Origin: Gordonia pseudamarae
Lineage (GTDB): Bacteria; Actinomycetota; Actinomycetes; Mycobacteriales; Mycobacteriaceae
Direction: 5' to 3'
DNA length: 64,000 nt
Assembly (NCBI RefSeq): GCF_025273675.1
Contig: NZ_CP045809.1
Coordinates: 3,906,001-3,970,000 of the forward strand
The notes beneath the pieces are model-generated. The model was not told the origin of the DNA. It saw only the letters and a program-made list of their open reading frames with translations, and did not search any database. Shown in pieces: positions 1-60,640 of the stretch. The translations under genes were made by a program, and so were the position numbers. Position 1 is the first letter of the stretch. Every line of letters begins with the position of its first letter.

Positions 1-244
1 GCGCCTCGGGGTCGAGCGGCACGTAGTGGCCGCCGGCGGCGACGACGGCGTGGATGGCCACCAGCAGTTCGACCGAACGATCGATACTGACGGCGACGGC
101 GACGTCGGGGCCCACGCCACGCAAGATCAGGTCACGGGCCAGAACCGCCACGCGGGCCGAAAATTCCTGGTAGCCCACTGCCCGGCCGCCGAACGCGAGT
201 GCGATCCGCTCCGAACCTGTAGCTGCCTGAATGAATTCAGCCAC
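1..244 (-). CDS. Non-ribosomal peptide synthetase, N-terminal fragment (starts at an A domain; runs off the left edge)
   Basis: Reading leftward from 244, 81 codons are visible before the window ends. The product opens directly as an adenylation domain. After about 12 residues it reads ALAFGGRAVGYQEFSARV, then VLARDLILRGVGPDVAV, then IDRSVELLVAIHAVVAAGG and YVPLDPEA. This matches the first 80 residues of the A domains in the neighbouring giant synthetase. There is no N-terminal C domain, so the C domain serving this module is the one ending the upstream protein (C17). The start is GTG at 242-244. An in-frame TAA at 248-250 rules out any extension, and an AAGGGG Shine-Dalgarno-like run lies 9 nt upstream. 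Substrate-pocket residues lie outside the window. The NRPS A-domain call is secure; the gene's length and product are unknown. Confidence 0.93.
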   Translation of the reverse strand, partial: MAEFIQAATGSERIALAFGGRAVGYQEFSARVAVLARDLILRGVGPDVAVAVSIDRSVELLVAIHAVVAAGGHYVPLDPEA

Positions 245-395: not shown

Positions 396-3300
396 TCAGT
401 TGTCACCAGGTCGATTATCGCCCAGGGCACCCGAACCGTTAATTCTATCGCCCGAACGGAGGACGGCCAGCGAGTCGGTGATAGTCCGCGACGTCAGAGT
501 CATCACCGAACCGCTCGACCATTGCGCCAGGTTGTCACGTTCGTCGGTTGCGATGATCGGCGCGGTGCCGACCGCGTCGTCCGGCGCGGCGGTCAGCGCG
601 TCGAGAAGCATCACCAGACGCCGGGCGAAGGTACGCATCGTCACCTCGTCGAACAGGTCGGTCGCATAGGTGAGCGATCCACCCCATTCACCGCCCGGCA
701 CCACACCGATGTTCACCGACAGGTCCCGCTGGGCAAATGTGAGCGGCGCGTCGATCGGTGTGACCCGCACACCACCGGCCTGGACACCGTCGGAGTTCTG
801 CGCGTCCGGTGAACTCCCGCCCGTATGCACGAGCGTCAGCATCACCTGCGCCAACGGTGCGAATGCCTGCGACCGCACCGGGTCGACGGCGTCGACGACG
901 GCCTCGAACGGTACGTCGGCGTTGGCGAAGGCGCCCAGGTCTGCCGACCGGACCTGATCGAGCAGGTCACTGAACGACATCACCGGATCGACCTCGGCCC
1001 GCAGCACCAGAGTGTTGACAAACATGCCGACGAGCGGGTCGAGCACCCGATCACCGCGCCCGGCGATCGGGGTGGCCACGGCGATGTCGTCGGTCGCGGT
1101 GAGTCTGGACAACAGCACCGCGAGCGCGGCGTGCACCGTCATGAAGGCGGTGACCCCGCGACGGGCCGACAGTTCGTCGATGCGGGCCGACACGTCGGCG
1201 GGCACGGTGAAACCGATCTGCGCACCTGCCGACGAGGCCACGATGGGCCTCGGCCGGTCTGCGGGCAGCTCGAGTACGTCGGGCAGGCCGCCGAGTTGCC
1301 GTCGCCAGTACGCCAGCTGGCCGCCGGCCACCGATTCGGGATCACGCGGGTCGCCGAGCATCGTGTGCTGCCAGATCGCGACGTCGGCGAACTGGACCTC
1401 CAGCGGCGCGAACTCCGGCGCATGTCCGGCCGACCGGGCGATGTAGGCGGTCATCACGTCGGTGACGAGCGGACGCATCGACTCACCGTCACCGACGATG
1501 TGATGAATGACCGCCGCGAACACCCATTCGGCCGGGGCGGTGCGCAGCAGCCGCACCCGGAACGCGGGCCGGCGGGCCACATCGAAGCCCGTCGACATCG
1601 CGGCGGCGACCTCGTCCTGCGAGTCGACGACCTGCCAGTCGAGGTTGGCCTGTGCCCAGTCCACATCGTGGATCTGCTGGTAGGGCTCACCGTCGACCGC
1701 AGGGAAGGTGGTGCGCAGCACCTCGTGCCGGGCCACCACATCCATCACGGCCTGCCGCAGCGCATCCACGTCCAGATCGCCCGAGACGCTGAGCGCGACC
1801 GGGATGTTGTAGGTCGCCGCCGCCGGATCGAACTGGTTGAGGAACCACATGCGCTGCTGCGCGAACGACAGCGGGATGTGTGCGGGCCGCGGGTCGGCCG
1901 CCGTGATCGGAGCCAGTGCCGCGGAGTTCCCGGCCACGGCCACAATGAGTTCCCGCACGCTCGGTGCGTCGAACACATCCCGCACCGACACCTCCACACC
2001 CAGCGCATCGGAGGCTCGGGCGGCCAGACGCATCGCCGACAGCGAGTTGCCGCCGAGGTCGAAGAACGACTCGGCCACCGACACCTCATCGACGCCGAGC
2101 AACTCGGCGAACACCGCGGCGAGGACTTGTTCCCGCCCGGTCTCAGGTGCGACGAACTCCCGATCCGCTCCGCCCGCGCCGACTGCGGGCAACGCCCTGC
2201 GATCGGTCTTTCCCGAGGCGCTGAGCGGCATGGTCTCCAGCCGAACCCACACCGACGGCACCATGAACGCGGCCAACGACGCCGATGCGTGTTCCTTGAC
2301 CGCATTCAGGTCCACCGACGCCGGTGACACATATCCGACCAAGACCGCGTCCGCAGCACTACCGGTCAACGCGGCTGCGGCATGCGACACGCCCGGCGCC
2401 GACGCAAGGACGGTCTCGATCTCCCCCAGCTCCAGACGCTGACCACGCAATTTCACCTGGAAATCAGACCGGCCCACGTACATCAGCTCGCCCGAAGCCG
2501 TCCACCGCACCACATCACCGGTGCGATACAGCCTCTCGCCGGCTGAACCGTACAGATCGGCGATGAACCGTTCAGCGGTCAATCCGGGCCGCCCCGCGTA
2601 GCCGCGCGCCACCAAGTCGCCACCCAGGTACAGCTCACCGGCGACACCCACCGGAACCGGATGCAAACGCTCATCAAGCACCCGAGCCACGGTCTTCGAC
2701 AGCGGCCGACCGATCGTCACCGGGACCCCCGGTGACAGCTCCGCTCGCGTCGCGTAGATCGTCGTCTCGGTCGGCCCATACTGATTCGGTACCAGCAATC
2801 CCGGCCACAGCTCGAACGCCCGACGCACCAACGCTGCCGGCATCGTCTCACCGCCAACGCACAACACCCGGAACGGAATCGCTCTGAGCGACGTGTCGGC
2901 GGCAATCTCCAGAATCGTCGCGAGCATGGACGGCACCATGATCGCCGTTGACACCTGATTCCGGACGAACAACGACACCAACTGGGCCGGATCCCGGTGT
3001 TCGTCCTGCGTGAGCATGACGAGCGGACCGCCAACGGCGACCGGCCGAAAGAACTCCAGCACCGACGGATCGAATGTGAACGAAAGGACCTGCGCGAAGA
3101 CATCGCGCGCGGTTAGCTCGTTGGCTGCCACATCGTGGAGCAGATGCGTCACCACCGAGCGATGCGACACCACAACACCCTTCGGCCGACCCGTCGACCC
3201 GGAGGTGAACATCGTGTACGCCGCCGCATCCATCCGAGGCACGTGGACGACCGACTCCAGATCCGCCGCGTCGGCTCCACGTGCGGCCTCGATCACCGCC

Positions 3301-6300
3301 TCGTCATCGACCTCGATGAGACGGGCACCGGCACGCGCGGCCGCTTCGGCGATCTCGGCCGATACCCCACCTGCGGGCACCACAATCACCTGTGCACCCG
3401 AAGTACGCAGAATGTAGGACGCTCGATCAGTCAGTGCCTCAGGGTCGAGCGGCACGAACTGGGCACCGGACACCGCAATGGCGTATACCGCCACCGCCAG
3501 CGACGCCGACCGCGGCATGCTGACCGCAACCGCGTCCTCCGCAGCCACACCCAGCTGCTGTGCCAGCGATGTGACGGCCGATCCCAGTTCGGCGAACGAC
3601 AACCTCACGTCGCCGGCGATCAGTGCCAGTTGTGACGGTGATTGCTCCACCCGCCGCACCACCAGATCCGCCAGCGTGACCTGTTCGCCGACGATCACCG
3701 GATCAGTACCGTCAGTCTCGATATCGACACCGGACTCAAGCGATGCGATCGCCGTGGCCTCTGCTTCGTCGAGCAATCCGATATCGCCGATCACCACCGA
3801 CGAGTCCTTGGTCACCTCATCGAGAACCATGACCAACCTCGACACCAGAAGCTCTATCGATGCCTCGTCGAACAGGTCGGTCGCGAACCGAGCGCTACCT
3901 TGCCAGTGGCCTGCCGATGCCCGGGTGTCGATATCGATGATGAGATCGACCTGTACCGGCGCCGGTCCGGTGTCGACGGAAGAGACCACCAGTGCATCGT
4001 CAGCGGTGATTCCGTCGGCTGGGATCAGTTCCGCCCCGGCATCTTGCTGCACCGAGAACCACACCTGGGTCAGTGGCGCGAACGCTTCGGACCGTATCGG
4101 GTTGAGCGCATCGACGATCGCTTCAAAAGGCACCGCGTCGTTGGTGAATGCGGCCAGATCGGTGGCCTTGACGTCGGCAAGGATGTCATCGAACGTCGCT
4201 CCGAAATCTACGCGGGTCCGCAGGACCAGCGTGTTGACGAACATGCCGACCAGTCGATCCAGCACCGACTGACCACGACCGGCGACCGGAGTGCCGATGG
4301 TGATGTCGTCGGATCCGCTCAGTCGAGCCAGCAGCACGGCCAGTGCACCGTGCACAACCATGAACGGAGTGACGCCGTGGGCGCGGGCTGTTCGCCCGAT
4401 ACGTTCGGTGAGTTCTTCCGGTAGCGAGAACCCGACGTTCCCGCCGTGTTGCGAAGCCACCGGCGGACGGGGCCGATCGGTGGGCAATGCCAGGACGTCG
4501 GGGATTCCGCGCAACTGCTCACGCCAGTAAGAGAGCTGGCGGCCCACCACGGAATCGGGATCATCGGGTGAACCCAACTGCGTGTGCTGCCAGATCGCGT
4601 AGTCGGCGAACTGCACCTCCAGCGGTGCGAAGTCCGGTATCCGGCCGGCGGACCGTGCCATATAGGCGGCGATCATGTCGGTCAACAGCGGAGCAAAGGA
4701 CTCCCCGTCCGCGGCAATGTGGTGCAGGACCAAGGCGAATAGCACCGAATCGCCTTCGGGGAGTACCCGAACCCGTACCGGCCAGTCGGCAGTGAGATCG
4801 AATCCGGTTGTGGCAGCGGCGACCAGATCGGCCTCCGAATCGACTACCGACCAGATGTGACGAGCATCGAACTCGTTCACATCACCGATGTGCTGCCACG
4901 GCACTCCGGCCTCTGCCGGGAACGTCGTGCGCAACACCTCCTGTCTGGACAGCACATCGATGACAGCCAACCGCAGCGCTTCGAGGTCCAGTCGGGTATC
5001 GACCTCCCTGGCCGCACCAAACCGGAGTACTGCGGGCATGTTGTACGCGGCCGATCCCGGATTGAACTGGTTGATGAACCACATCCGCTGCTGCGCGAAC
5101 GACAACGGAATCCGTTGCGGCCGGGGCACGGTAGCGGTGATCGGGGCCAGAGCGGTGCCGTGACCGGAGGTCGCGGCGATCAGTTCCCGAACACTCGGTG
5201 CGGAGAACACATCACGCACCGACACCTCCACACCCAGGGCATCGGAGGCTCGGGCGGCCAGGCGCATCGCCGACAACGAGTTGCCGCCGATATCGAAGAA
5301 CGACTCGGTCACCGACACCTGCTCGACGCCGAGCAGGTGTGCGAACACCGCGGCCAGCGAGGTTTCGGAGTCGGTCGCCGGGGCGACGTATCCTGCCGCA
5401 ACCGCACCGAAGTCGGGTGCGGGCAGAGCCCGGCGATCCAGCTTGCCCGCCGAGTTCAGCGGCACCTCATCGAGCAGCATCCACACCGACGGCACCATGT
5501 ACGACGGCAACGATTGTGCCGCAGCGGACTTCACCGCTTCGACATCGATGTCGGCCGGGGCCAGATACGCCACCAGATGATCGGCGCCGGTCTCGGTCGC
5601 GGCGACGGTCGCCGCCGCGTGCACCACACCCGGCACCGCCGCCAACACCGCCTCGATCTCACCGAGCTCGATGCGCTGACCACGCAACTTCACCTGGAAA
5701 TCAGTACGACCCAGATACTCGATCTCACCAGCGGTGTTCCACCGCACCAGATCACCGGTCCGGTACAGCCGTGAACCGGGCTCACCGTACGGATCGGCGA
5801 CAAACCGTTCAGCACTCATCCCCGGCTGCCCCGCATAACCACGAGCGATCTGGACGCCACCGAGGTACAACTCGCCGGGGATACCCACAGGTACCGGCCG
5901 CAGACGGTTGTCCAGGACCAGGGTTTCGGTATTCCACACCGGCGCACCAATAGTCACCACGCCGGGCGCGGAACTCACATCGGACCACGCCACCTCAACC
6001 GCAGCCTCAGTCGGACCGAACAGATTATGAATACCCACCCACGGCCACACCTCGTGCACCTGAGCCACCACAGCCGCCGGCAAAGCCTCACCCGAAGCAA
6101 ACACCCACTTCAAGCTCGTCAACTGCGCCAACCGGTCACGATCGACCACATCAACAAACACCGACAACATCGACGGCACAAAATGCACCGAGGTTGCCTG
6201 AGTTTCAGCGATCAGACCCGCGATGTACTCCGGATCCGCATGACCACCCGGACGCGCAATCACCACCTGAGCGCCCGTGAACAACGGCGCAAACAACTCC

Positions 6301-9300
6301 GGCACCGACACATCGAACGTGTACGGCGTCTTCTGAATCACCCTGTCGCCCACACCCCACGCAAACGCATCCAACCCCCACCACAAACGGTTCAGCACCG
6401 CACGATGCGACACCGTCACACCCTTCGGCCGACCCGTCGAACCCGACGTGAACAACGTGTACAACGCGTTATCCAACGACAACGGAGCCAGACGATCAGC
6501 ATCAGTGACCGGCGGTGCCGTCAGATCCACCTCGGCATCACACGAGACGACGATGGTACGGACATTCCCGGCCCGCCAGGTTTCGACGCCACTCGCTTGC
6601 GCTCGCGGCACCTCAACCGACGAGGTTGCCCCATTGCCGGTTGAGGCGTGAGGAGCGTCAGCGACGAGCCTCGAAACCACGTGAGATGACGTGTCCGACA
6701 CCAGGACAACACCCACACCAGCAGTCTCGAGCATGAACCGCACCCGATCAGCCGGAGCATCCGTGGCGATCGGCACATACTGACCACCGGCAGCAACGAC
6801 GGCGTGAATAGCCACCACCATCTCCACCGAGCGGTCGATACACACACCAACAGCCGCATCCGGCCCCACCCCGACCGCAATCAACTCACGGGCAAGCACA
6901 CCCGTACGCGCCGACAACTCGGCATAAGAGACACCACGCCCCTCAAACCACAACGCCGACAACTCAGGAGTCGAAGCAGCCCGCGCCACAAGAGCATCAG
7001 CAACGGTACCGGCCGGAACCGTGGTGACCGGGCCGGTCCCGGACGCGACCGCGGCGTCGAGAACGTCGGCGGAAGCCAACACCATGTCCGCCGTCAGGCC
7101 GTCCGGATCAGCGGCGATCGCATCGAGGATCGACACCAGCGCACCGGCGAACACCTGCACCTGAGCTTCGGTGAACGCGGCAGGCAGGTACTTCAGGCGC
7201 AGCAGTAGGCCGTCGCCCTCGGGCATGGTCACCATGTTGAGCGGGTAGTGCGTGGAGTCGCTGAAGTCGGCCGAACGCACCGCCAGACCACCTGCCCCCG
7301 ATGCGCCGGCGTTCTCGATGGCCGCCGCATCCACCGGATACGACTCGTGCACCACGAGCGTGTCGAAGCCGATCCGGCTTCCGGATGTCGCAGCGATGTC
7401 GGGCAGCGAAAGGTGCTGATAGTCGAGCACCTTCACCTTGTCGGACTGCACCCGCCGCAGCACCTGCGCGATCGTCGCCGACGGATCGACGTCGACCACC
7501 GCGGGCAGGGTGTTGATGAACAGGCCCACCATCGATTCGACCCCGTCGAGGTCTGCGGGGCGTCCGGAGACGGTCTCACCGAAGGTGACCACCTGGTTGC
7601 CGGTGATCCGCGACAGCAGCACCGCCCACGCGGCCTGCAGCACGGTGGCCAGGGTGGCGCCGTGTTCGCGGGCCACCGCTTCGACGCGGGTGATCAGCTC
7701 ACCGTCGATAACGGTTTCGCTGTCGCGCGGCAGCAGGGCTTCGCTGGCCTCGACGGCTCCGGCGACCAGCGTCGGGCCCTCGACCGGCGCGAGTACCTCG
7801 CGCCAGGCCTGTACTCCGGCGGCTTCGTCGCGGTGCGCGATGAGCCGCAGGTAGTCACCGAAGTCGGTGGGCCGGGTGCCGGTGAACGGCTTGCCGGTGG
7901 CGTATAGCGACAGCAGATCGGCCATCACCAGCGGACCCGACCAGCCGTCGAGGATCAGGTGATGGTTGGTGACGATCAGCGTCGACGACGCGCCGTAGTG
8001 CACGAGAACGAACCGCAGCAGCGGCGGTACGGCCAGGTCGAACGGCAGCACCCGCTGCTGCGTCGCGATCTCCGAGACACGGCGCGATGCGGCATCGTCG
8101 GTGATGTCGCCGAGATCGATCTCGGACCACGGCACCGTCACCTGCTCGGGCACCACCGACACCACCGCCCCGGAGTCGGTCAGCACGAAGCCGGACCGCA
8201 GCACCCGGTGCTGGGCGACCAGGCCGTCGGCGGCACTACGCAACCGGGCCGTGTCGATGTCGCCGAGCGCGACGACAGACTGGGCGACGTACACGTCGAC
8301 GCCGGCGTCGGTGGCGGCGGCCAGTTCGGCCTCGAAGAACAGGCCACGCTGCAGTGGTGCGAGCGGCCACACGTCGGCGGTCGGGTACCGCTGCGCCAGG
8401 GCGTCGAGATCGGCCTGCCCGATGTCGGTCCCCGGAACGTCCGACGGCGACAGACCGGGATCGTTGCCGGCGGCGACGAAGGCGGCGATGTCGGCCAGTT
8501 CCGCCGACCAGCGTGCGGTCAGGTCTGCCACGTCGGCCTCGCCGATGACACCGGCCGGGTAGCTGACGGTGGCACTGAGCCGGCGTCCGCCGTCGACTCC
8601 GACGGTGGCGACGTTGATGTTGAGAACCCCCTGGGCCACCATGCCGCCGGCGGGCGAACCCGGGTAGCCGGGGCCTTCGGCACCCATGAACGGCAGCGGC
8701 TCGGTCGCGGCGGCTGTCGACGATCCCCCCGTCGTTCCGCTGGCCCGGGATGTTCCGCCGCTACCGGCACCCAGATAGTTGAACACGATCGACGGCAGCG
8801 GACGGGCTGCGAGCTCTGTCGCGGCGCCGTAACGCAGCGGGCCGAATCCGATGCCGGAGTACGGCTGTGCGAGCCGTTCCTCCTTGGCGGCCTTCACCGC
8901 GTGTACCGCGTCGGCGGCCGGGTCGAGGTTGAGCGGTGCGATACTGGTGAACCAGCCGACCGACCGCGACAGGTCGGCCCGCACCGGGTCCGGCCCGGCT
9001 TCGAGGACTTCCTCGTACCGTCCGTGGCCTTCGGCGAGCACCGACACGGGGTTGTCGTCGACGATGCCGTGATCGCGCTGCCACGAGCGCACGGCCCGCG
9101 CGAGTGCGGCCAGCAGCACATCACTCACGTTGGACCGGAACGCTTCTGGCGCGGCCGTGAGGACCGTTTCGGTGACGGTGGCGTCGACGAAACCGGTGTG
9201 CGCGCGCAGCGTGCTGACGCGATCACGCGCCCGGTCGACCGTGGCGCCGAGATCGGTGGGCCGCTCGGGCAGCCGTTCGAGCCAGTAACCGACCTCACCG

Positions 9301-12300
9301 GTGTGCTCACCGGCACGCTCGGCGATGGCAGTGGCCCACGCGCGCTGCGAGGTGGTGTTGACCCGCAACCGGTACGGATGGCCCTGAGAACGCTGGGCCC
9401 ACAGGGTGACGAGATCCTCGATGATCGCCTGCCATGACACCGCGTCCACGCTCAGGTGATGGATCGTGAGCACGATCCGCCCGACGCCTGCCGCGTCGGT
9501 ATCATCCCCCGTCGCCGCGCTCGCCCCGGTCACCAGTACCGCCTGCACCATGCTGCCGGTGGCCGGGTCGAGGCGGCCCGCCCCCAGTCGGTGGGCGCGG
9601 GTGAGGTCGGCCGAGAATCCGGCGGTACCGACGGCGTGTTCGGAGTTGATCACGGACACCGCTGCGGCGGCATCGAAGTCGGCACCGGCGAACAACTGCC
9701 ACGCGGCTGCGACCGCGAGGTCGTGTCGTGGGGCGTCGAGGCTCGCCGACGGCACCATCGCAGCGGACAGCATCGGATGATGCGCGACCAGTTCGGCCAC
9801 CAGCTCGGTGAGCACCTCGACGGTCAGATCCCGCGGCGCGGCCAGGGTGACCGCCTGGTTGAAGTCGGCGAAATCGGTTGCGCTGTCCGAATGCTCAAGC
9901 ATCCACGAGACGATCGCGGGTAGCGGCATCGCGCCCACCGCCCCACCTTCGGGCTCGGCCAGCTCAGGCAGACGCGCCGAGGTATCGGTGATCGCCGCAG
10001 CCATCCCCCGCACCGTGCGCCGCTCAAAAATCTCCCGCGGCGACAGATCGAACCCGGCCGCCCGCACCGCCGAAGCCAGCTGAATCGACATGATCGAGTC
10101 ACCACCGAGCGCGAAGAACGACTCGGTGGCACTGACCCGGTCCACACCGAGCAGGCCCGCGACGACAGAGGCGAGGAGCTCTTCCACCGCACCGAGCGGG
10201 GCGACGAAGTCGGCACTCACCGCACCGAAGTCGGGTGCGGGCAGAGCCCGGCGATCCAGCTTGCCCGCCGAGTTCAGCGGCACCTCATCGAGCAGCATCC
10301 ACACCGACGGCACCATGTACGACGGCAACGATTGTGCCGCAGCGGACTTCACCGCTTCGACATCGATGTCGGCCGGGGCCAGATACGCCACCAGATGATC
10401 GGCGCCGGTCTCGGTCGCGGCGACGGTCGCCGCCGCGTGCACCACACCCGGCACCGCCGCCAACACCGCCTCGATCTCACCGAGCTCGATGCGCTGACCA
10501 CGCAACTTCACCTGGAAATCAGTACGACCCAGATACTCGATCTCACCAGCGGTGTTCCACCGCACCAGATCACCGGTCCGGTACAGCCGTGAACCGGGCT
10601 CACCGTACGGATCGGCGACAAACCGTTCAGCACTCATCCCCGGCTGCCCCGCATAACCACGAGCGATCTGGACGCCACCGAGGTACAACTCGCCGGGGAT
10701 ACCCACAGGTACCGGCCGCAGACGGTTGTCCAGGACCAGGGTTTCGGTATTCCACACCGGCGCACCAATAGTCACCACGCCGGGCGCGGAACTCACATCG
10801 GACCACGCCACCTCAACCGCAGCCTCAGTCGGACCGAACAGATTATGAATACCCACCCACGGCCACACCTCGTGCACCTGAGCCACCACAGCCGCCGGCA
10901 AAGCCTCACCCGAAGCAAACACCCACTTCAAGCTCGTCAACTGCGCCAACCGGTCACGATCGACCACATCAACAAACACCGACAACATCGACGGCACAAA
11001 ATGCACCGAGGTTGCCTGAGTTTCAGCGATCAGACCCGCGATGTACTCCGGATCCGCATGACCACCCGGACGCGCAATCACCACCTGAGCGCCCGTGAAC
11101 AACGGCGCAAACAACTCCGGCACCGACACATCGAACGTGTACGGCGTCTTCTGAATCACCCTGTCGCCCACACCCCACGCAAACGCATCCAACCCCCACC
11201 ACAAACGGTTCAGCACCGCACGATGCGACACCGTCACACCCTTCGGCCGACCCGTCGAACCCGACGTGAACAACGTGTACAACGCGTTATCCAACGACAA
11301 CGGAGCCAGACGATCAGCATCAGTGACCGGCGGTGCCGTCAGATCCACCTCGGCATCACACGAGACGACGATGGTACGGACATTCCCGGCCCGCCAGGTT
11401 TCGACGCCACTCGCTTGCGCTCGCGGCACCTCAACCGACGAAGGCGACACCTCCACCGACGAAGAGAACGTCTCAACCTGCGAAGAGGTCACCTCCACCG
11501 ACGAGGTTGCCCCATTGCCGGTTGAGGTGCGAGGAGCGTCAGCGACGAGCCTCGAAACCACGTGAGATGACGTGTCCGTCACCAACACCACACCCACACC
11601 GGCGGTGTCCAGCATGTACTGGACACGATCAGCCGGAGCATCGGTGGCGATCGGGACGTACTGGCCACCGGCGGCGACCACCGCGTGGATTGCCACGACC
11701 ATCTCCACCGAGCGGTCGATACACACACCCACAGCCACATCCGGCCCCACCCCAGCCGCAATCAACTCACGCGCAAGCACACCCGTACGCGCCGACAACT
11801 CGCCATAAGAGACACTGCGCCCCTCAAACCACAACGCCGACAACTCAGGAGTCGAAGCAGACCGCGCCACAAGAGCATCAGCAACGGTACCGGCCGGAAC
11901 CTGTGCGACCGGGCCACGTTCGAGTTCGGCTACCTGCGCCCGACGGGTGTCGGTGAGCAGGTCGATGTCGGCGAGTACGCGGTCATCGCCCATGGCGAAC
12001 GATGTCAGGATCTGTACCAGCGCATCCGAATATTGCTGCACGTGTTCGGCACTGAACGCCGACGGCAGGTACTTGAGGTCGACGGCGAGGCCGTCGGCGA
12101 CCGGTGCGGTGATCATGTTCAGCGGGTAGTGCGTGGCATCGGTGGCCTCGATGCCGACGATCTCCAGACCGCCGACTGCACCGGCGTCCGCGGTCGAGAG
12201 CGAGTCGGTGTTGATCGGGTACGACTCGTGCACCATCAGGGTGTCGAACGATGCCGCCACTCCCGCGGCCGCGAAGATCTTCGGCAACGGAATGTGCTGG

Positions 12301-15300
12301 TAGTCGAGCACCTTCACCTTGTCGGCCTGCAGAGCTTCGAGGAGTCCGCCCACGGTCCGGGCCGGGTCGACGTCGACGACCACCGGCAGGGTGTTGATGA
12401 ACAGACCCACCATCGACTCCACGCCGGTGAGTTCGGCCGGGCGTCCGGAGACGGTCTCACCGAAGGTGACCACCTGGTTGCCGGTGATCCGCGACAGCAG
12501 CACCGCCCACGCGGCCTGCAGAGCGGTGGCCAGAGTGGCGTTGTGTTCGCGAGCAACCGCTTCGAGACGCTCGAGCGCATCCGCGGGGAGAAGCGCGTGC
12601 AGCTTGCGCGGCATCGCCTCGACGGTGGCTTCGGCACCCGGTGCGACGAAGGTGGCGCCGTCGGCGCGGCCGACGATCTGCCGCCAGACGTCGAGCCCGG
12701 TGTCACCCTTGCGCGCGACGGACATCACGTAGTCGGCGAAGTCCGTGCTCTCCGGAGCGGCGCCGGTGAAGGTCGAACCGGTGGCGTACAGGGCCAGCAG
12801 GTCGGCGAGCACCAGCGGTCCGGACCAGCCGTCGAACAGAATGTGGTGGTTGGTGATGACCACACTCATCCCGTCGGCGTGGGTCACCACGATCACCCGC
12901 AGCAGCGGGGCCGCGGCCATGTCGAACGGCACCGTCTTCTGGGCGGCGGCGATGCCGGCGACCCTGGTCCGGGCTTCTTCTCCGGCGAGAGCGCCGAGGT
13001 CGACGATCTGCCACGGCACCCGCACCGACGTCGGGACCACGGCGACGACGGCACCGCTGTCGGTGCGCACGAACGCCGAGCGCAGCACCCGATGCTGGTC
13101 GACCAGGGTGTCGACGGCCCGGTGCAGACGGTCCAGGTCGACGCCCGGCCCCAGGTCGAGTACGGCCTGCGTCAGGTAGACGTCGAGCGCATGCTCGTCA
13201 GCCATCTCGGCCTGGAAGTACAGACCACCCTGCAGCGGCGACAACGGCCATACATCGGCGCCCGGGAACCGCTCGGCCAGCGCGTCGAGGTCGGCCTGCG
13301 TGACGGCGGCACCCGGAACGTCGGACGGCGACAGCCCTGGCGAGCCGGCGGCGACCGCGTCGACGACCGCGGCCAGCTCGGCCGACCACCGGTCCATCAG
13401 TTCCCGCACGGCGTCGGCGCCCAGGACCGCTTCGGGGAAGGCGATGGTCGCGGTCAGGCAGCGCCGGCCGTCGACGATGTCGGTACCGGCGTTGATCGCG
13501 AGAATCGCCTGCGCGGCCATCGCTCCGGCGGGCGAGGCCGCGAAGCCCGGGTTGGGCACGCCGGTGAACGGTGACGGCTCCCGGCCGGGTTCGGTGGCCG
13601 ACCGGCCACCGGCGCCGAGATAGTTGAACAGGATCGACGGCAACGGCCGCTGCGCGAGTTCGGCGGTTGTGGCCGCCCGGTAGCGCAGCCAGCCGAAACC
13701 GATGCCCGAATCCGGTTGTCCCAAACGTTCTTCCTTGGCCGCCTTGACGGCATGGAGCACATCATCGGCGGGGTCTATCGACACCGGGGCGATGGTGGTG
13801 AACCAGCCGACCGACCGGGACAGGTCGGCGCGCCGCGGATCTGCTCCGGTCTCGAGGACCTCTTCGTTGCGGCCGTGGCCTTCGAGGAGGATCGAGACGG
13901 GTGCGTGGTCGGCGATAGCGTGATCGTGCTGCCAACCGCGGACCGCCCGCGCGAACGTACCGAGCAGCACGTCGTTGACGTTGCCGCCGGAAGCCTTGCT
14001 GCTGAATGCTTCCGGAACCGTGGTCAGCACGGCTTCGGTGACATCGGGGTCGACGGTGTGCGTGAGCGACACCGCCGTCGACGCCCGGTCCCGGCTACGG
14101 TCCAGGGGCGCACCGAAGTCGGTGGGCCGCTGCGGCAACCGGTCCAGCCAGTATCCGGTCTCGGCTTCACGTTCGCCGATACGCTCGGCCAGCGCCGCGG
14201 ACCAGGCCCGCAGCGAGGTTCCGGTGTCACGCAGGTGCAGCGGATGACCGGCCGAATGCTGTGCCCACAGCGTGACCAGGTCCTCGATGATCGCCGCCCA
14301 CGACACCGCATCGGTACCGAGGTGATGGATCACGGTGACGATGCGGCCCACACCATCTGCGGAGGCCAACACCACCAGTTCGATGATCCGGCCGGTCGCC
14401 GGGTCCAGACGACCGGCTGCGGCGGCGTGCGCGGCCACCAAGTCGTCGTCGAAGCCACTGCTGCCCAACGCATGTGCGGAAGTCATCGCCGAGATAGCGG
14501 ATGCGGCATCGAATTCGGTGCCCGCGGTCAGTGCCCAGTCACCGCCGGTTCGGGTCAGACGCGCCGACAGCATCGGATGCTGCGCGACCAGCACGGCGAG
14601 CAGTTCGGCGAGCACGTCGACGGACACACCGCGCGGTGCGGCGAGCACCACGGCCTGGTTGAAGTCGGCGAAGTCGGCCGGAATGTCGGCGTATTCGGTC
14701 ATCCACGACACGATCGGCGGGATCACCATATCGCCCGCGCCACCACCGTCCGGCTCGGCCAGTTCCGGCAGATGTGCGCTCGGATCGGTCATCGCCGCCG
14801 CCATCGCGCGGACGGTTCGGTGTTCGAAGATGTCGCGCGGGGAGAGGGCGAATCCCGCCGCCCGCATCGCCGAGGCCAACTGGATCGACATGATGGAGTC
14901 GCCGCCGAGGGCGAAGAACGATTCGGTGACCGACACCCGGTCGGCGCCGAGCAGACCGCCCACCACGGAGGCGAGCAGTTCCTCGACCGCGCCGAGCGGT
15001 GCGACGTAATCGCCGGTGAGCGCTCCGAAGTCGGGTGCGGGCAGGGCCTTGCGGTCGAGTTTGCCGGAACTGCCCAGCGGCACGTCGTCGAGCATGTTCC
15101 ACACGGTGGGCACCATGTAGGCGGGCAGCGCGGCCTCGGCCGCCGCCTGCACCTGGGTGAGGTCCACACCGGACGGCGACAGGTAGGCGACGAGGTGCTG
15201 GGCACCCGCGTCGGTGGTGGCGACGGTTGCCGCCGCATGCACCACACCCGGTACCGATGCCAGCACGGCCTCGATTTCCCCGAGTTCCAGACGCTGACCG

Positions 15301-21300: not shown

Positions 21301-24300
21301 TCGGCCTGGGTGATGTCGGTGCCGGGTACGTCGGATGGCGAGAGACCGGGATCCGCGCCGTCGGCGACGGATGCTGCAACTGCCCCGAGTTCGGTTGTCC
21401 AGCGGTCCATCAGGTCGCGGATGTCGTCCTCGGCGAACACGCCGCGCGGGTAGGTGACGGACGCGCCGAGACGGCGCTGCCCGGCGACAGTACCGACGTT
21501 GGCGTTGATAGTGAGCGCACCCTGCGCGACCATGCCGCCGGCCGGCGACGGTGAGAGTCCCGGTCCGGCCGCACCGCCGAATGCGAGCGGTTCGGCGTCG
21601 GATCCGCTGCCACCCGCGCTCGCGCCGAGGTAGTTGAACACCACCGACGGCAGCGGGCGGGTTGCGAGTTCACTGTCGGCGTGCGGGCCGTAGCGCAGCC
21701 AGCCGAAGCCGATTCCCGAATCCGGTTGTCCCAGACGTTCTTCCTTGGCCGCCTTGACCGCGTGCACGATGTCGGCGCCCGGGTCGAGGGACAGCGGTGC
21801 GATGGAGGTGAACCAGCCGACGGTACGCGACAGGTCGGCCCGGGCCGGGTTGCTCCCTGATTCGAGGACGTCCTCATAACGGCCGTGGCCTTCGATGAGA
21901 ACTGAGACGGGCGCATCATCGACGATGCCGCGGTCGCGCTGCCAGGACCGAACGGCCCGGGCGAAGGCACCGAGGAGTGCGTCGGACACGTTGGCGCCGT
22001 AGGCTTCCGGCACCGTCGTCACCAATGGTTCGGTGATTTCCGCGGCCACCTGGTGCAGATAGGTGTCCGAGGTCGAGACACGATCGCGGGTCCGGTCCGG
22101 TGCGGTGCCGAAGTCGGTGGGCCGCTGCGGGAGTCGTTCCAGCCAGTACCCGGTTTCACCGGCGTGGTCACCGGAGCGTTCGGCCAGTGCGGTGATCCAT
22201 GCCCGCTGCGAGGTGGTGGTTGCCCGCAACTGGTACGGCTGCCCCTGCGAACGCTGAGCCCACAGGGTGACCAGGTCCTCGATGATGGCCTGCCACGACA
22301 CGGCGTCGACGCCGAGGTGATGGATCGCGAGCACGATCCGGCCGGTACCGGCCGGATCGGTGACCAGCACGGTCTGCACCAGTTGTCCGGTGGCGGTGCC
22401 GAACCGGCGGGTTGCCTGTTCGTGCGCGGTCACCAGATCGGCGTTGAATCCTTCGGTGCCGACGGTGTGTTCGGAACTGATCGCGGACACCGCCGCGGCG
22501 GCGTCGAAGTCGTTGCCTGCGACGAGCTCCCATGCCGTTGCGCCGCCAAGGGATTCTTGCGGGGTTTCGCGGCTCGTCGCCTGCACTCCTCGCACCGGGG
22601 CCGGCGAAGATGTCAGTGATGCCGACAGCATCGGGTGGTGGGCGACGAGTTCGCCGAGCAGCTCGGCCAGCACGTCCGCGGTCAGACCATTGGGGGCAGC
22701 GAGGATGTTCGACTGGTTGAAGTCGGCGAAATCGGCTGCGGTATCGGCATGTTCGATCATCCACGACACCACCGGCGGCACCGGCATCACACCGGACGCA
22801 CCACCTTCGGGCTCAGCCAGCTCGGGCAGACGCGCCGAGGTGTCGGTGATGGCGGCGGCCATCCCGCGCACCGTGCGCCGTTCGAAGATCTCTCGCGGCG
22901 ACAGATCGAAGCCCGCTGCCCGCACCGCGGAGGCGAGCTGGATCGACATGATCGAGTCACCGCCGAGCGCGAAGAATGACTCGGTGACGCTGACGCGGTC
23001 AACACCGAGCAAGCCCCCGACGATGGAGGCCAGAAGCTCTTCAACCGCACCCAGCGGGGCCGCATAGTCCAGGCTCACCACACCGAAGTCGGGAGTAGGC
23101 AGCGCTTTACGGTCCAGTTTGCCCGCCGAGTTCAATGGCACTTCGCCGAGCAGCATCCACACCGACGGCACCATGTACGACGGCAGTGCCTGCTCCACGG
23201 CGGACTTCACCACATCCACATCGACCGTGGACGGAGACAGGTACGCCACGAGATGTTCGGCACCGGTTTCGGCCCGCGCCACCGTCGCGGCGGCGTGCAC
23301 CACGCCCGGTGCGGCGGCGAGTACCGCTTCGATCTCGCCGAGCTCGACGCGCTGGCCACGCAACTTGACCTGGAAGTCGGTGCGGCCCAGGTATTCGATG
23401 TTCCCGTCGGCATTCCAGCGCACCAGGTCACCGGTCCGGTAAAGCCGTGAGCCATCGACACCGTACGGATCTGGGATGAACCGTTCGGCGGTCAGACCGG
23501 GCTGCGTGGCGTAACCGCGCGCGATCTGGATGCCACCGAGGTACAGCTCCCCGGGAACACCGACCGGCACCGGACGGAGGCGATCATCGAGAACCAACGT
23601 CTCGGTGTTCCACACCGGCGCACCGATCGTCACCATCTCCGGCGCGTCGGATACATCGGCCCAGCTGACCTCGACCGCGGCCTCGGTAGGGCCGAACAGG
23701 TTGTGAATACCGACGTTCGGCCAGACATCGTGGACCCGCGTGACCACAGCGGCCGGCAGCGCCTCACCCGAGGCGAACACCCACCTCAGGCTCGTCAACT
23801 GCGCCAACCGGTCACGGTCGACAACATCGACGAACACCGACAGCATCGACGGTACGAAGTGCACCGACGTCGCCGCGGTCTCCTCGATCAGATCGACAAT
23901 GTAATCCGGATCGGCATGGCCGCCCGGGCGGGCGATAATCATCTGCGCGCCGGTGAACAGTGGCGCAAACAACTCCGGTACCGACACATCGAACGTGTAC
24001 GGCGTCTTCTGAATCACTCTGTCCCCGACCGTCCAGGGGAAGGCGTCCAGACCCCACCACAGCCGGTTCAGGATCGCCCGGTGCGACACCGTCACCCCCT
24101 TGGGGCGGCCTGTCGAACCGGAGGTGAACAGCGTGTAGAGCGCGTTATCCGGCGTCAGCGGCGCCGAACGTTCAGCATCGGTAACCGGTGCGATGGACAG
24201 ATCCACCTCGTCGGCACACGACACGGCGATGGTGCGGACGCCGCCGATCCCGAACGTGTCCACGACCAGAACCATCTCCACACCGGCGGTATCGAGCATG

Positions 24301-42300: not shown

Positions 42301-45300
42301 TAAGAGACACCACGCCCCTGGAAGATCAGCGCGGTCGCGTCCGCGGCATCGGCGGCACGCGCCGCGAGCAGGTCACTGACCAGCTCACGCCCGACCACGG
42401 GCGCCGCCGGACGTGACCACGCGAGCAACTGCTCCCGGTCGGGTCCGTCGAGCAGCCCGATCTCCCGCGTCGGCGTATCGGGCCCCTCGGCGACAACCCG
42501 CAGGATGTGCGCGAGTGCACGTACGAACACCTCGATCTGCGCGTCGGTGAACACCGACGGCAGGTATGCCAGCCGCAGCTGCAGCTGGTCATCGGTCGGC
42601 GTCGCACCGAAGCCGAGCGGATAGTGCACCGAGTCGAGAACGTCGACCTGCCGTACGTCCAGACCGGCCGAGGATGTGTCGGCGGTGGTCAGGGTGTCGG
42701 TGTTGACGGGGTAGGACTCGAACACCGTCAGCGTGTCGAAGAGCGGTCCGTGCCCGGTGTGGGCCAGGATCTGCGGCATCCCCAGGTGCTGATGGTCAAG
42801 AACCTTGACCTTGTCGGCCTGCAGCTTCGCGAGCACGTCGGCGATCGACGCGTCGGGGTCGACGTCGACGACCGCGGGCAGCGTGTTGATGAACAGGCCC
42901 ACCATCGACTCGACGCCGGGCAGGTCGGCCGGACGACCGGAGACGGTCTCACCGAAGGTGACCACCCGGTTGCCGGTGAGCCGCGAGAGCAGCACCGCCC
43001 ACGCGAACTGGGTGATCGTGGCCATCGTGGCGCCGGTCGACCGCGATACGGCCTCCAGGCCCGCGGTCAGTTCGGCGCCGAGACGCTCACGTCGATCGCG
43101 CGGCAGCGAATCACGCTGCGCCTCTTGCCCGGCGGCCACCATCGTCGGACTGTCGACGGGTGCCAGGACCTCGTTCCACGCGGCCAGGCCGCTCGCGTCG
43201 TCGGTGCGCGCTATCTGCGCCAGATACTCGGAGAAGTCGGTGACCGGGGTGAACGGCCGCCCCAGCGCGTACAGCGCCAGTACGTCCGCCACCACCAGCG
43301 GGCCCGACCACCCGTCGAGGATGATGTGATGGTTGGTGACCACCAGCGTCGACGAATCACCGTGCATGGCGAGCACGAACCGCACCAGCGGCGGATCGGT
43401 GAGATCGAACGGGATGGCGCGCTGCTCCTCCACGATCTCCTGGACGCGCCGCTGCGCGACCGACTCCTCGAGGCCGGTCAGATCGACTACCGCCCAGGGA
43501 AGTTCGGCCTCATCGTGGACGACGGTGACCACCGCACCGCTCGGCGCGGACACGAATCCGGACCGCAGCACCGCGTGATGGGCCACCACCTGCCGGGCGG
43601 CGGTGTGCAGCCGTTCGGCGTCGACCTGCCCCAGTTGCAGGACGGCCTGCGCCACATACACGTCCACGGCGCCGTCGGAGGCCGCGGCCAGCTGGGACTG
43701 GAAGTACAGGCCCTGCTGCAACGGCGAGAGCGACCACAGCTGCGCGGTCGGGTAGCGCGCGTCGAGCACATCGACGTCGGCCTGGGTGAGGTCGACCCCC
43801 ACCACATCCGAGGGGCTGCGGCCCACGAGGCCGTCCGAGGAGGCCACCGCATCGACGACCTCGGCGAGGTACTCGACCCAGTGGCGGCCGATCTCGGCGG
43901 CGTCGTCCGCCGAGAGCACCGAGGTGAGGTAGCCGATGTTGGCCACCAGTACCCGGTTGCCGCCGTCACTGCCGATTCCGGCGTCCAAGGTCAGCGCCGC
44001 CGAGGCCACCATCGCTCCCGACCGTGTACCGGGCAGATCGTAGCCCTCGGCGGCCGGCGCGAACGCGAGCGATGCCAGTGCCGCGTCGTCGTCGGCACGC
44101 ACGCCACGGTTACCGGCGTAGTTGAACGACACCGCGGGCATCGGGGCATCGGCGAAGGCGTCCCGGTGCGGCCCGTAACGCAGTGGTGCGAAGGCGATTC
44201 CGTCACCGGGCTGGCTCAGGATGGCTTCCTTGGCCTGCTTGACCAGTGCTCGCGGATCGGTGTCGGTGACATCGACCGACACCGGCGAGAATGCGGTGAA
44301 CCAGCCGACTGTGCGGGCGAGATCGGCACCGGCGGCTATCTCCTCGGCACGACCGTGCCCTTCCAGCAGGATCGACACGCGGGCGGCGGCCAGTCCGTGC
44401 CCGCGGCTCCAGCGGTCGACCGCCGCGGCGAGTGCCGCGATCATCGCCTCCGACGGTCCGGTGCGGAATGCCTCCGGCACCTCCGACAGCAGACGTTCGG
44501 TGACGTCGGACGGCACCCGCACGGCGGTCCGCGCGAGTGCGCGTTCCCGGTCGGTGGCGCGGTTCACGGTGTGCCCGAACCACTCCGGTGTCTCGGGCAA
44601 CTGGCTGCGCCAGTAGTCGATCTCGGCGCCGCGGTCGGCACCGAGTTCGGCCTGCACCTGTGCCCAGCGCCGCACCGAGGTGCCCTCGGCCTGCAGGGCG
44701 ATCGCCTGCCCGGCACCGAGCTGGCCGGCGGCGGTCACCAGGTCGGCCAGCACCGTCTGCCACGAGACGATGTCGACGACAGCGTGATGGATCGCCAGGA
44801 TCAGGCGCCCGTCCGCGCCGTCGGCGGGCAGGAGTGCGGCGGCGGCCACCATCAGGCCGCTCGCCGGGTCGAGCCGGCCCAGCACCGCGGTGTGGGCGGC
44901 CTCGACCGCCTCGGTGAACTCGGGACTTCCGGGTGCGCCGGCCGCGGTGTCGACGGTGATCGCCGCCGCGGCATCGAAGTCGACCGCACCGGTACGCATC
45001 ACCGGTACACCGCCGGGGTTCGGAGTGTCACCGGTGGGGACGGTGAGCGTGGCGGTGAGGGCGGGGTGGCAGGCGACCATCGCCGACAACACCGCTGCGA
45101 TGGTCTGCTCGGTGGTGCCCGCCGGCAGTACCAGCACCCGCGACTGCGAGAAGTCGGCGTAGTCGGCGGGGCTGTCGCCGCGTTCGATCATCCACTCGAT
45201 CAGCGGCGGCAGCGTCACCTCGCCGGCGGGTCCCCCGTCGAGCTCGGCGAGCACCACGGCCGCACTGCCGGCCGCGGCACCCGCGAGTGCCCGGACCGTC

Positions 45301-57300: not shown

Positions 57301-60300
57301 CCGGCGATCGGCGTCGAGATCGCGATGTCCTCGGAGGCGCTGAGCCTGGCCAGCAGCACCGCGAGCGCGGCGTGCACCACCATGAACGGGGTGACGCCGT
57401 AACCCCGGGCGAGATCATCGATCTGCCCGCCGACGAGCGCGGGGATCCCGACCGTGATCTTGCCGCCCCGGCCCGACGCCACCTCCGGACGCGGGAAATC
57501 GGTCGGCAACTCGAGCACATCCGGCAGACCGTCCAGCTGCCCGGTCCAGTACGCCAGCTGCTTGCCCACCACCGACTGCGGGTCGTCGGGCGAACCCAGC
57601 TCGGCGTGCTGCCAGAGAGCGAAGTCGGCGACCTGCACCGGCAACGGCTCGAACTCGGGGGCCCGGCCGGCCGCCCGCGCCACGTAGGCGGTCAGCATGT
57701 CCGAGACCAGCGGCAGCATCGACTCGCCGTCGGCGGCGATGTGGTGCACCACCACGGCCAACAGCCATTCGGGCTGCGTCCGGGAATCGCCGGCCAGGGT
57801 CTGCAGCACCCGTACCCGGATAGGCGTCCGCACCGACACGTCGAAGCCCTCGGCGACGGCGTCGTACAGCTCGGCCGCCGACCCGGCCACCGCCCAGTCC
57901 AGATTCGCGTCCACCGACTCGGCGGGCGTGACGATCTGGCTCAGCTGCTGACGGTCGGAATGGAAAACGGTGCGCAACACCTCATGCCGCATCACCACGT
58001 CGACCACAGCCGCGCGCAGCGCCGACACATCCAGATCGCCGCTCATGCGCAGCACCACCGGGATGTTGTACGCCGCCGACGCGGTGTCCATCTGGTTGAT
58101 GAACCACATCCGGGCCTGCGCGAAGGACACCGGAATCCGGTCCGGGCGCGGCACGACCGCGGTGACCGGCGGCAGACCCGCATCCACCTGGCCGGCGCGT
58201 TCGGCGAAGGCACGGACGGTGGGCGCCTCGAACAGGTCACGCAGATTCAGATCGACACCGAGTTCGTCACAGGCGCGCCCGACGATCCGGGCGGCCAGCA
58301 GCGAGTTGCCGCCCATGTCGAAGATCGACTGGAGCACGCTGATCTCGTCGACACCGAGCACCTCGGCGAAGATCGTGGCCAGCACGGTTTCCGTGTTGGT
58401 CTCGGGCGCGATGTATTCCACCGTCGACTCGATCACCGGGTCGGGCAGGGCGCGACGATCGAGCTTGCCGTTGACGTTCAGCGGCAACTGCTCGAGCACC
58501 ATGATGATGTCGGGCACCATGTAGTCGGGCACCTTGGTGGCGGCGGCCTGCTTGATATCGGCCGCGACGAGCTCGCCGCCGTCGGCCGACGCACCGACCA
58601 CATAGCCGACGAGCTGATCGGGGAAACCGGGCCGCACCTTGATCGCGGCGGCCGCGGCGTTCACCCCGTCCGCCGACAGCAGCGCCGCCTCGACCTCTCC
58701 GAGTTCGATGCGATAGCCACGCAGTTTGACCTGGTCGTCGGCGCGGCCAAGGAACTCCAGGCTGCCGTTGCGGAAGATGGCCACGTCGCCGGACTGGTAC
58801 ATCCGGTCGCCGGGCGCCCCGTGCGGGTCGGCCACGAACCGGGTGGCGTTGAGCGCGAACCGGCCCGCATAGCCGCGGGCCAGCTGATCGCCGGCCAGAT
58901 ACAGATCGCCGGGCACGCCGTCGGGTGCCTTGGCCAGCCGGGAGTCGAGCACGTACATCCGTGAGGAATCGAGCGCCGCACCCACATCGCTGGCCAGCGT
59001 AGATGCGACAAAAGCCGGGGTCAGCTCCCGGCGAGTCATGTATACGGTGGCCTCCGTGGGCCCGTACATGTTGTTCAGCTGTGGACCGTCGTTGCCGTCG
59101 TAGCGCTGCCGATCGGCGAACCAGCGCCGCACCTGCTCGAAGTCGAGGGCCTCGCCGACGAAGATCATCGACCGCACCGACTGTGACAATGTCTCCGGTG
59201 ACGGCTCGCGCACGGCACCGGCGAGCTGATAGAACGCCGACGGCGTCAGGTTCACCACCGTCACGCGCTCACGGCGCAGAACCCGTGCGAACTCGTCCGG
59301 GGTACGGGTGGTCAGGTAGTCCAAGACCACCAGGGTGCCGCCCCACGCCAGCGATACCCAGATCTCGCCCACCGACACATCGAAGGCGTACGACTGGAAC
59401 ATCGTCCACACATCGTCGGGGGTGTAGTCGTATTCACGACCCATCGCCGACAGCAACGCCACCACATCGGCGTGCGTGACCACCACACCCTTGGGCTTAC
59501 CTGTCGAGCCGGAGGTGTACATCACGTACGCCGGATGCCTGCCGTCGACCCGGGACGGGATCGCGGCACGAGTGCGCTCGGTGGCGGCCGCGGACTGTTC
59601 CGCGATGGTGGCCAGGGGAACGTTCAACTCCGCCCACGCCCCGACCGTCGCCTCGTCGGTCAACGCGAGTACCGGGTGTGCGTCATCGACGATCGTCGCC
59701 AGCCGATCGAGCGGATGGGACTGATCCAGTGGCAGATATGCCGCACCCGTCTTCGACACCGCGAGCAGCGCGACGATCAGATCGGCATCACGCGGCAATG
59801 CCACACCGACCAGCGTCTCCGGTCCCGCGCCGGCGGCGATCAGACCGGCCGCCAGAACATCGGAACGCTCATCGAGCTCGGCATAGGTCAGCGAGGCACC
59901 GGAGGTATCGCGCACCGCTGTCCTGTCGCCGAACCGCGCCGCGATCGACGCGAAGATACCCGGCAGGGAGCCCAGATCCGCCGAACCGGCGAGATCGAAC
60001 GCCGCGGTACGGATCGCCGAGATCGCCTCACCGGTGGCGGCCGCCAGATCACCGGGCGCCGTGCCGGCCGCCAGCAGCGCCGGGGTCACGGCGGCACCGA
60101 CCGCGGCCTCGGTGTCCAGCCCCTGCGCCGCGAACACCGTCACGGTCGCCGAGATCTGGGCATTGAGCTGGGCAAAAGTCACCGGCACCTGCGTCCCGGG
60201 AAGAGCCGGCAGGTCCGGAGCCGCGGCGGCGGCGAAGCCGATCAGATCGACGGTTGACGGTTCGGCTCCCCAGATCCTGGAGAATGCAGCAGCCAACACT

Positions 60301-60367: not shown

Positions 60368-60640
60368 CTACAGTGTGGACGATGTCGACGCTGTCGCGTT
60401 GCTGCGGAGTGTGTCCAGCGCTTCGCCCAGCTTCTCCGGTCCTTGCACTGCCAAGCTCGGCACCAGACTCATCAGTGCCGTGATCAGCGCGGAGTCGGCA
60501 TCGGGCAGGGTCGCCGCCATCGCGGTGGCCATCGCCGACAACGCGGCAAAGCTCACCGTCATTCCGCCATCGGCAAACGCCTCGGCATCGGGAGTGGCCG
60601 CGACGGCCGACGCGACGAGCTCGGGCAGCGGCAACTGCGC
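60368..60640 (-). other. C-terminal tail of the upstream NRPS resembling a degenerate A-domain N-terminus (putative docking region)
   Basis: After C1 the protein reads LVASAVAATPDAEAFADG, then MTVSFAALSAMATAMA, and ends STSSTL. This follows the register of a normal A-domain start (ALVARAASTPELSALWFEG, then SVSYAELSARTSVLAREL) but has lost the conserved residues. It stops before the A3 motif, so it cannot be catalytic. Its place at a protein junction suggests a communication role; that is inference. Confidence 0.5.

Follow-up and report, generated by a model that had tools for sequence, protein, structure and literature searches.

A 19,972-codon gene in a four-gene, 27-module non-ribosomal peptide synthetase line at the S10/spc junction of Gordonia pseudamarae

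Described systems and the four-gene line

The largest continuous bacterial non-ribosomal peptide synthetase (NRPS) gene is, according to the available text of PMC9002308 (citing Bode et al. 2015), the kolossin gene of Photorhabdus, plu2670, with 49.1 kb and 15 modules. Like the kolossin A synthetase of that account, the G. pseudamarae gene described here, designated N2, is a single continuous multimodular NRPS gene with a predicted D/L peptide product. Compared by description, it is set apart by its size (59.9 kb and 16 modules) and, unlike kolossin, it is one of four genes that together hold 27 modules, with modules split at the gene borders. A second likeness is to Nocardia GCF 6, a conserved large NRPS line that varies in module number (7 to 13) within an invariant gene setting, but the accessory genes named in the part of PMC7413640 available are others, and no ribosomal-operon address is mentioned there; this comparison, too, is by description. 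The putative lipopeptide NRPS families of Rhodococcus share with our locus a first domain of C-starter type, predictions rich in Ser and Thr, and the lack of known products; those families are mostly clade-specific in the available account (PMC5550956), whereas here one locus is held across most of Gordonia. New here are an extreme member of a known NRPS kind, an unusual address and, possibly, a new docking element.

The window (the whole stretch of 64,000 nucleotides that was analysed) had been described in a preliminary account as carrying one uninterrupted frame of 16 modules and 53 domains with a mass of about 2 MDa, and these claims agree with our analysis. N2 runs from a GTG start for 19,972 codons without a stop in the ORF listing (19,979 aa from stop to stop) and has a computed mass of 2.104 MDa; HMMs built from Pfam matches gave the same total of 53 domains (Table 1). 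In the genome-wide Pfam search, 16 AMP-binding and 21 Condensation matches fell within N2, of which 16 Condensation matches were strong and the five weaker ones are the E domains. A direct Pfam scan of the translation, over residues 1-10,000 of 19,972, named the same domain families. GC content by codon position ascends in the order 2 < 1 < 3 in every 1,000-codon block, and the conservation of relatives, which reaches or nears the GTG, supports it as the start. A chance open frame was rejected on the grounds of the 19,979 stop-free codons with domains all along, and the long plus-strand ORFs opposite the NRPS modules (up to 2,259 aa, 42507-49286) were interpreted as shadow frames of a high-GC coding strand.

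Four NRPS genes with the same orientation (N1-N4; 98,572 bp and 32,770 aa), of which N2 is the second, are separated by gaps of 53, 151 and 46 bp and together encode 27 A (adenylation), 27 T (carrier), 27 C (condensation) and 6 E domains plus a terminal TE. The domains of N2 follow the order A-T-C...-A-T-C and supply modules 3-18, and every one of the three gene borders cuts a module between C and A. The "at least 18 residues" of the preliminary description is accordingly a low bound, since the window cuts an operon bearing 27 A domains. Its reading of an extreme giant NRPS stands as to continuity and size, but was too narrow in view of the 27 modules on four genes and the related giant frames that are common in the genus. 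Its statement that all key motifs are intact is nearly exact: among the 27 modules, the carrier serine and the YGPTE-type motif of the A domain were found in all, HHxxxDG of the C domain in 26 (HHxxxDA in the last C of N3) and the A3 core in 26 (TSGSTGRPKA in the fifth A of N2), and HHxxxDxxSW was found in 6/6 E domains. The TE of N4 carries a GWSVG motif, and EntF chains containing a TE were among its matches. With repeated C-A-T modules that carry the active-site motifs, and with a release domain that closes the final subunit, the line is a type I modular NRPS by the features tested.

Upstream of the line, on the opposite strand, lie genes for an ABC ATPase and an ABC-2 permease. A GT2 ORF (3872419-3874542) adjoins the operon, but among ten genomes it was matched only in the source genome (E 1e-8), and glycosyltransferase tailoring was therefore kept out of the mechanism. 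If expressed, N2 would be among the largest bacterial polypeptides, and the synthesis of one peptide would take a line of 32,770 aa, proportionally some 3.4 MDa.

Table 1. Positions of the features of the NRPS line (window numbering unless marked as contig)
Feature	Position	Strand	Content or basis
N1, 2,681 aa, C-A-T-C-A-T-C, first C starter-type	contig 3966368-3974413; window part 60368..64000	-	HMMs
N1 last 105 codons, after last C, with ~90-residue domain	60371..60685	-	profile comparison
N2, giant NRPS gene	396..60314	-	16 A, 16 T, 16 C, 5 E
N2 N-terminal region, residues 1-118, with ~90-residue domain	59961..60314	-	profile comparison, predicted structure
First A domain of N2 (module 3), code DVGNIVMVYK	58869..59951	-	HMM call and code reading
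E domain, module 7	44109..44885	-	HMM and motif
E domain, module 9	36120..36956	-	HMM and motif
E domain, module 13	21621..22415	-	HMM and motif
E domain, module 15	13611..14420	-	HMM and motif
1,223-bp exact repeat, copy 1, A domain of module 16	10219..11441	-	
E domain, module 16	8766..9584	-	HMM and motif
1,223-bp exact repeat, copy 2, A domain of module 17	5401..6623	-	
Last C domain of N2 (partner A is the first domain of N3)	540..1880	-	HMM and motif
N3, 4,342 aa, four A-T-C units	contig 3893216-3906244; first codons at window 1..244	-	HMMs
N4, 5,775 aa, five modules and TE	contig 3875842-3893169, outside window	co-directional with N2	HMMs
MbtH-like gene, downstream of N4	contig 3875566-3875790		
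Free-standing ORF of ~90-residue domain, after MbtH, 126 aa	contig 3874848-3875225		

Predicted product and working of the line

When all 27 C domains are placed in one tree, the first C of N1 stands alone, 6/6 C domains that follow an E domain form one clade and 20/20 that follow a T domain form another, as expected for one starter, six DCL and twenty LCL domains. The best matches of the first C were the solved C domains 7c1k/7c1h/7c1p, ObiF1, EntF and CDA synthetase I, all of which we take to be starter C domains. This separate branch and these matches identify the first C as of starter type, and the line is very probably a lipopeptide synthetase.

Ten-residue codes of the A domains were taken from the alignment by motif anchors, which presumably correspond to the GrsA positions. 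The code DVWHFSLVDK, found in modules 15, 19 and 23, is given as the Ser code of enterobactin synthetase in the available part of PMC3795760, and DFWSVGMVHK, found in module 4, is named in a Thr/Dhb section of PMC12283262, as far as its text was available. Seven further modules (1, 9, 12, 13, 16, 17 and 24) carry the near-Ser codes DVGHFSLVEK or DVPHFSLVEK, and no substrate could be matched to 16 of the 27 codes; the groups of codes that are Ser-like or without a substrate include DVPHFSLVEK, DVPHSTLVEK, DPLxxGQIxK, DALQWGKIDK and DVGNIVMVYK. From the place of the E domains, D residues are expected at positions 7, 9, 13, 15, 16 and 24, and the line most likely yields an N-acylated, Ser-rich peptide of 27 residues.

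With high confidence we regard the locus as a real, very long member of a Gordonia NRPS family at the S10/spc junction, the four-gene, 27-module line of which would make a lipopeptide of about 27 residues. In the working that we propose, the starter C of N1 would join a fatty acyl group to the residue of module 1, which has a Ser-like code. After the addition of two residues by N1, the chain would pass to N2 for 16 residues, to N3 for four and to N4 for five, assisted at the A domains by the MbtH-like protein. The six E domains would form D residues, to be accepted by the C domains of DCL type, and the TE of N4 may free the Ser-rich lipopeptide of about 27 residues in a linear or cyclic form, which the adjacent ABC transporter may export. 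The order of domains, the C types, the kinship of the starter C and the codes, on which this scheme is built, are direct observations, as is the conserved place of the line; most substrates, like the production of the protein itself, are presumed.

Distribution, ribosomal address and alternative readings

The N-terminal 135 residues of N2 were matched in 56/59 genus genomes (E 1e-6), and 25/25 loci bearing names were of Gordonia, with 43-63% identity across the N2 head. In a sample of 151 family genomes, strong matches to this N-terminus were found in one g12 genome (G069), one g15 genome (G132) and six g18 genomes (G182, G171, G133, G159, G117 and G100). The longest related frames in the genus survey were of 18,521 (G040), 18,315 (G050), 17,953 (G013), 16,138 and 15,209 aa, with several of about 13,440 aa; in the order survey, for which frames were listed for 24 of 397 genomes with four candidates scored per genome, the longest other frame among those listed was of 17,357 aa (G136). 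No frame listed in the genus, family and order surveys is longer than N2, which, judged from these frames, is an extreme member of a recurring family (13-18.5 thousand aa in the genus) rather than a new kind. In other genera of the family survey, a second regular class of giant NRPS, of about 11,270-11,460 aa, was observed in several genera.

In many bacteria, the genes rpsQ (S17) and rplN (L14) adjoin each other where the S10 and spc operons meet. In the source genome they are 117,876 bp apart, with the NRPS line in between. The address could be judged in 38 of the 59 Gordonia genomes, those with both genes on one contig (21 were unjudged, and in two of these rpsQ was not detected): the spacing was 10.5 to 137 kb in 38/38, the start of N2 lay between the two genes in 36/38 (exceptions, G035 and G036), and the line was on the strand of rpsQ in 36/36. 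By eye, the same arrangement was seen in five of seven g18 genomes (G182 is split over contigs and G075 is without it) and in G069, and in G132 the NRPS match and rpsQ are on different contigs. The junction is often interrupted across the family, because among 30 one-per-genus genomes the starts of the two matches were 2-65 kb apart in 15 and at most 1.3 kb apart in 11 (four were not comparable). A literature search of open-licence papers gave, among those listed, no title on an NRPS at a ribosomal operon, and the words "ribosomal protein", "lipopeptide" and "modules" are absent from the available part of a survey of Gordonia metabolism (PMC9680422).

Some further breaks and insertions were observed in this region of the source genome. 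The 3' part of rpsQ is duplicated (3979221-3979413 and 3982218-3982410; L006): two direct copies of 193 bp, 97.4% identical, flank about 3 kb that include a VWA-domain gene, perhaps as the trace of an insertion or partial duplication. A pair of genes for a VbhA-like antitoxin and a Fic protein (PF18495, PF02661; 3978204-3979132) lies between rpsQ and the NRPS. The spc operon is broken a second time at 3809320-3863463, where rpsH is 54 kb from rplE; this gap contains a five-module NRPS (3834927-3851855) and, as named by eye, VapBC-like genes, an IS3-like fragment and nar-like genes.

The locus was compared in nine relatives, eight of them NRPS-bearing, with 17 A domains in G032, 17 plus a second nine-module line in G013, 16 in G008, 14 in G133 and 13 in G057. 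The order C-A-T-C-A-T-C of N1 was kept in 8/8 NRPS-bearing relatives and the module 3 code, DVG-N/H-I-V/A-MVYK, in 7/8 (G032 differs, and the second copies of G013 and G018 also deviate); MbtH follows the line in 6/8, and ABC genes are close to it in 8/8 (weak in G133, and in the truncated region of G057 represented by the permease alone). The line can be dispensed with, since at least three relatives (G034, G030 and G018) have broken, overlapping or odd frames at the locus and G035 lacks an NRPS at this position. Two relatives, G013 (L052-L058) and G018 (L063-L069), carry tandem pairs of a starter gene and a giant gene at the same junction, with 17 and 9 A domains in G013 and with a broken longer copy and one of 9 in G018; in both, a four-module NRPS is on the opposite strand.

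The line appears to change both through gain and loss of modules and through exchange of A domains. At the DNA level, the six A domains with code DVPHFSLVEK share 78.4-97.8% identity and their C partners 60.4-73.6%; the mean over 60 sampled pairs of other A domains is 66.2%. The T domains of the same modules are 82-95% alike among the four that precede an E domain, 76% between the two without E, and 57-67% in mixed pairs. By this pattern, A domains would have been copied individually and not along with their modules, and exact A-domain repeats of up to 1,223 bp (Table 1) suggest recent exchange; recombination has been described as driving NRPS evolution (PMC8097286). Lines of 13 to 27 modules with a conserved head at one address would form a natural experiment on the lengthening of assembly lines, on the A-domain exchanges that are tolerated and on the cooperation of subunits cut inside a module.

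Near-identical A domains might also have caused modules to be gained or lost during assembly, in which case the true module number would differ from 27. Besides the 1,223-bp repeat, N2 contains exact repeats of 680 and 416 bp and shares others, of 914 and 875 bp, with N4, and such repeats could hide a collapsed or extra module, so that the module count hinges on long reads. We nevertheless consider an assembly artefact very unlikely, since the source genome is a single contig of 5,147,008 bases (99.97% complete), since the copies sit in A domains with differing C partners (60-74%) and each therefore has unlike neighbours, and since frames of 15-18.5 thousand aa occur in relatives. Moreover, the N1 protein cluster holds eight sequences on three contigs, the longest of which, with 5,213,089 bases, differs in length from the source contig, and the source or a very near strain has thus apparently been assembled more than once. 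It is also improbable that the locus is silent or decaying, with N2 intact yet no longer expressed or uncoordinated across the genes. Such a state would fit the lack of a clear Shine-Dalgarno sequence ahead of N2 (by eye), the one atypical C motif and the broken or odd frames of the three relatives named above, but not 98.6 kb of NRPS genes without an in-frame stop and with nearly all motifs intact, nor the retention of MbtH and the transporter beside the line in most of the relatives read.

A non-acylated or differently capped peptide, for which the first C would take another acid or be a relic, is a more serious alternative, though we still hold it to be doubtful. No stand-alone AMP-binding (acyl-ligase) frame was found between rplN and rpsQ, where all AMP-binding matches are within the four NRPS frames, and an acyl-activating enzyme would therefore be supplied from elsewhere; the nearest stand-alone frame (contig 3823212-3824270) is close to another NRPS. 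EntF, whose C domain takes an aryl acid, is among the closest solved relatives of the first C, but the best matches include the first C of CDA synthetase I and the 7c1k group as well. An acyl-activating enzyme is frequent but not obligatory in lipopeptide clusters, ligases may be encoded outside the cluster, and most rhodococcal NRPSs have a C-starter domain, according to the available text of PMC5550956.

A small adenylation-like domain at the N1-N2 border

In this line, the end of N1 and the head of N2 carry the same domain of about 90 residues, and a free-standing form of it follows MbtH (Table 1). Free-standing forms of about 100-130 residues beside MbtH were found in 6/8 NRPS-bearing relatives (G030, G032, G008 and G057, with two each in G013 and G018). 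Profile comparison of the N1 tail (its profile made without L019, L020 and L040) gave a probability of 96.4% with the N2 head (E 1.2e-9, 89 columns) and of 95.1% with the free-standing form (73 columns); the N2 head and the free-standing form gave 94.4% over 77 columns, or 90.8% over 82 columns when query and template were exchanged. Each of the three also matched the N-termini of A domains at 89-96%, but over only 44-55 columns (86.8% over 51 columns for the N2 head in a smaller comparison), and the C and T domain controls were at 1.5% or lower. In Pfam and NCBIfam, no match was found at E 0.001 for the N1 tail, the N2 head or two free-standing relatives; at weaker values, several NCBIfam models of acyl-CoA-synthetase type touch the domain with their N-terminal ends (best E 0.0057), and the 126-aa ORF scored 17.1 bits against AMP-binding, below the cut-off. 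A database search with the free-standing form gave 45 proteins, of Gordonia wherever the organism was given, all named "hypothetical" or "uncharacterized protein" save for one with a truncated non-ribosomal-peptide label. The predicted structures agree in a helix-strand-helix start followed by two helices, and in structural searches, in which matches were weak, ANL N-terminal regions led.

We tentatively propose that this domain, perhaps derived from the N-terminus of an A domain, may be a new docking or helper module that bridges the C/A cut between N1 and N2, by which a fixed dimodular starter at the ribosomal junction would feed fast-changing giants of 13 to 27 modules; the docking role is possible but less than probable. 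Against it, N3 and N4 open directly with A domains, and the N2-N3 and N3-N4 borders, which are C/A splits as well, are without the domain, as 2/8 relatives are without the free-standing form. Like the COM, PAX and beta-hairpin docking domains, which serve E/C or PCP/C borders in the available text of PMC9113145, it is found at the ends of NRPS subunits; unlike those, it is at a border of C to A, resembles the N-terminus of an A domain and also exists free-standing. The adenylation-like small domain offers a docking hypothesis that can be tested. As a separate observation, five g10 genomes (G067, G114, G130, G145 and G181) carry a frame of 117-160 aa that matches the N2-head model, on the same contig as the giant frame of the second class (about 11,270-11,460 aa).
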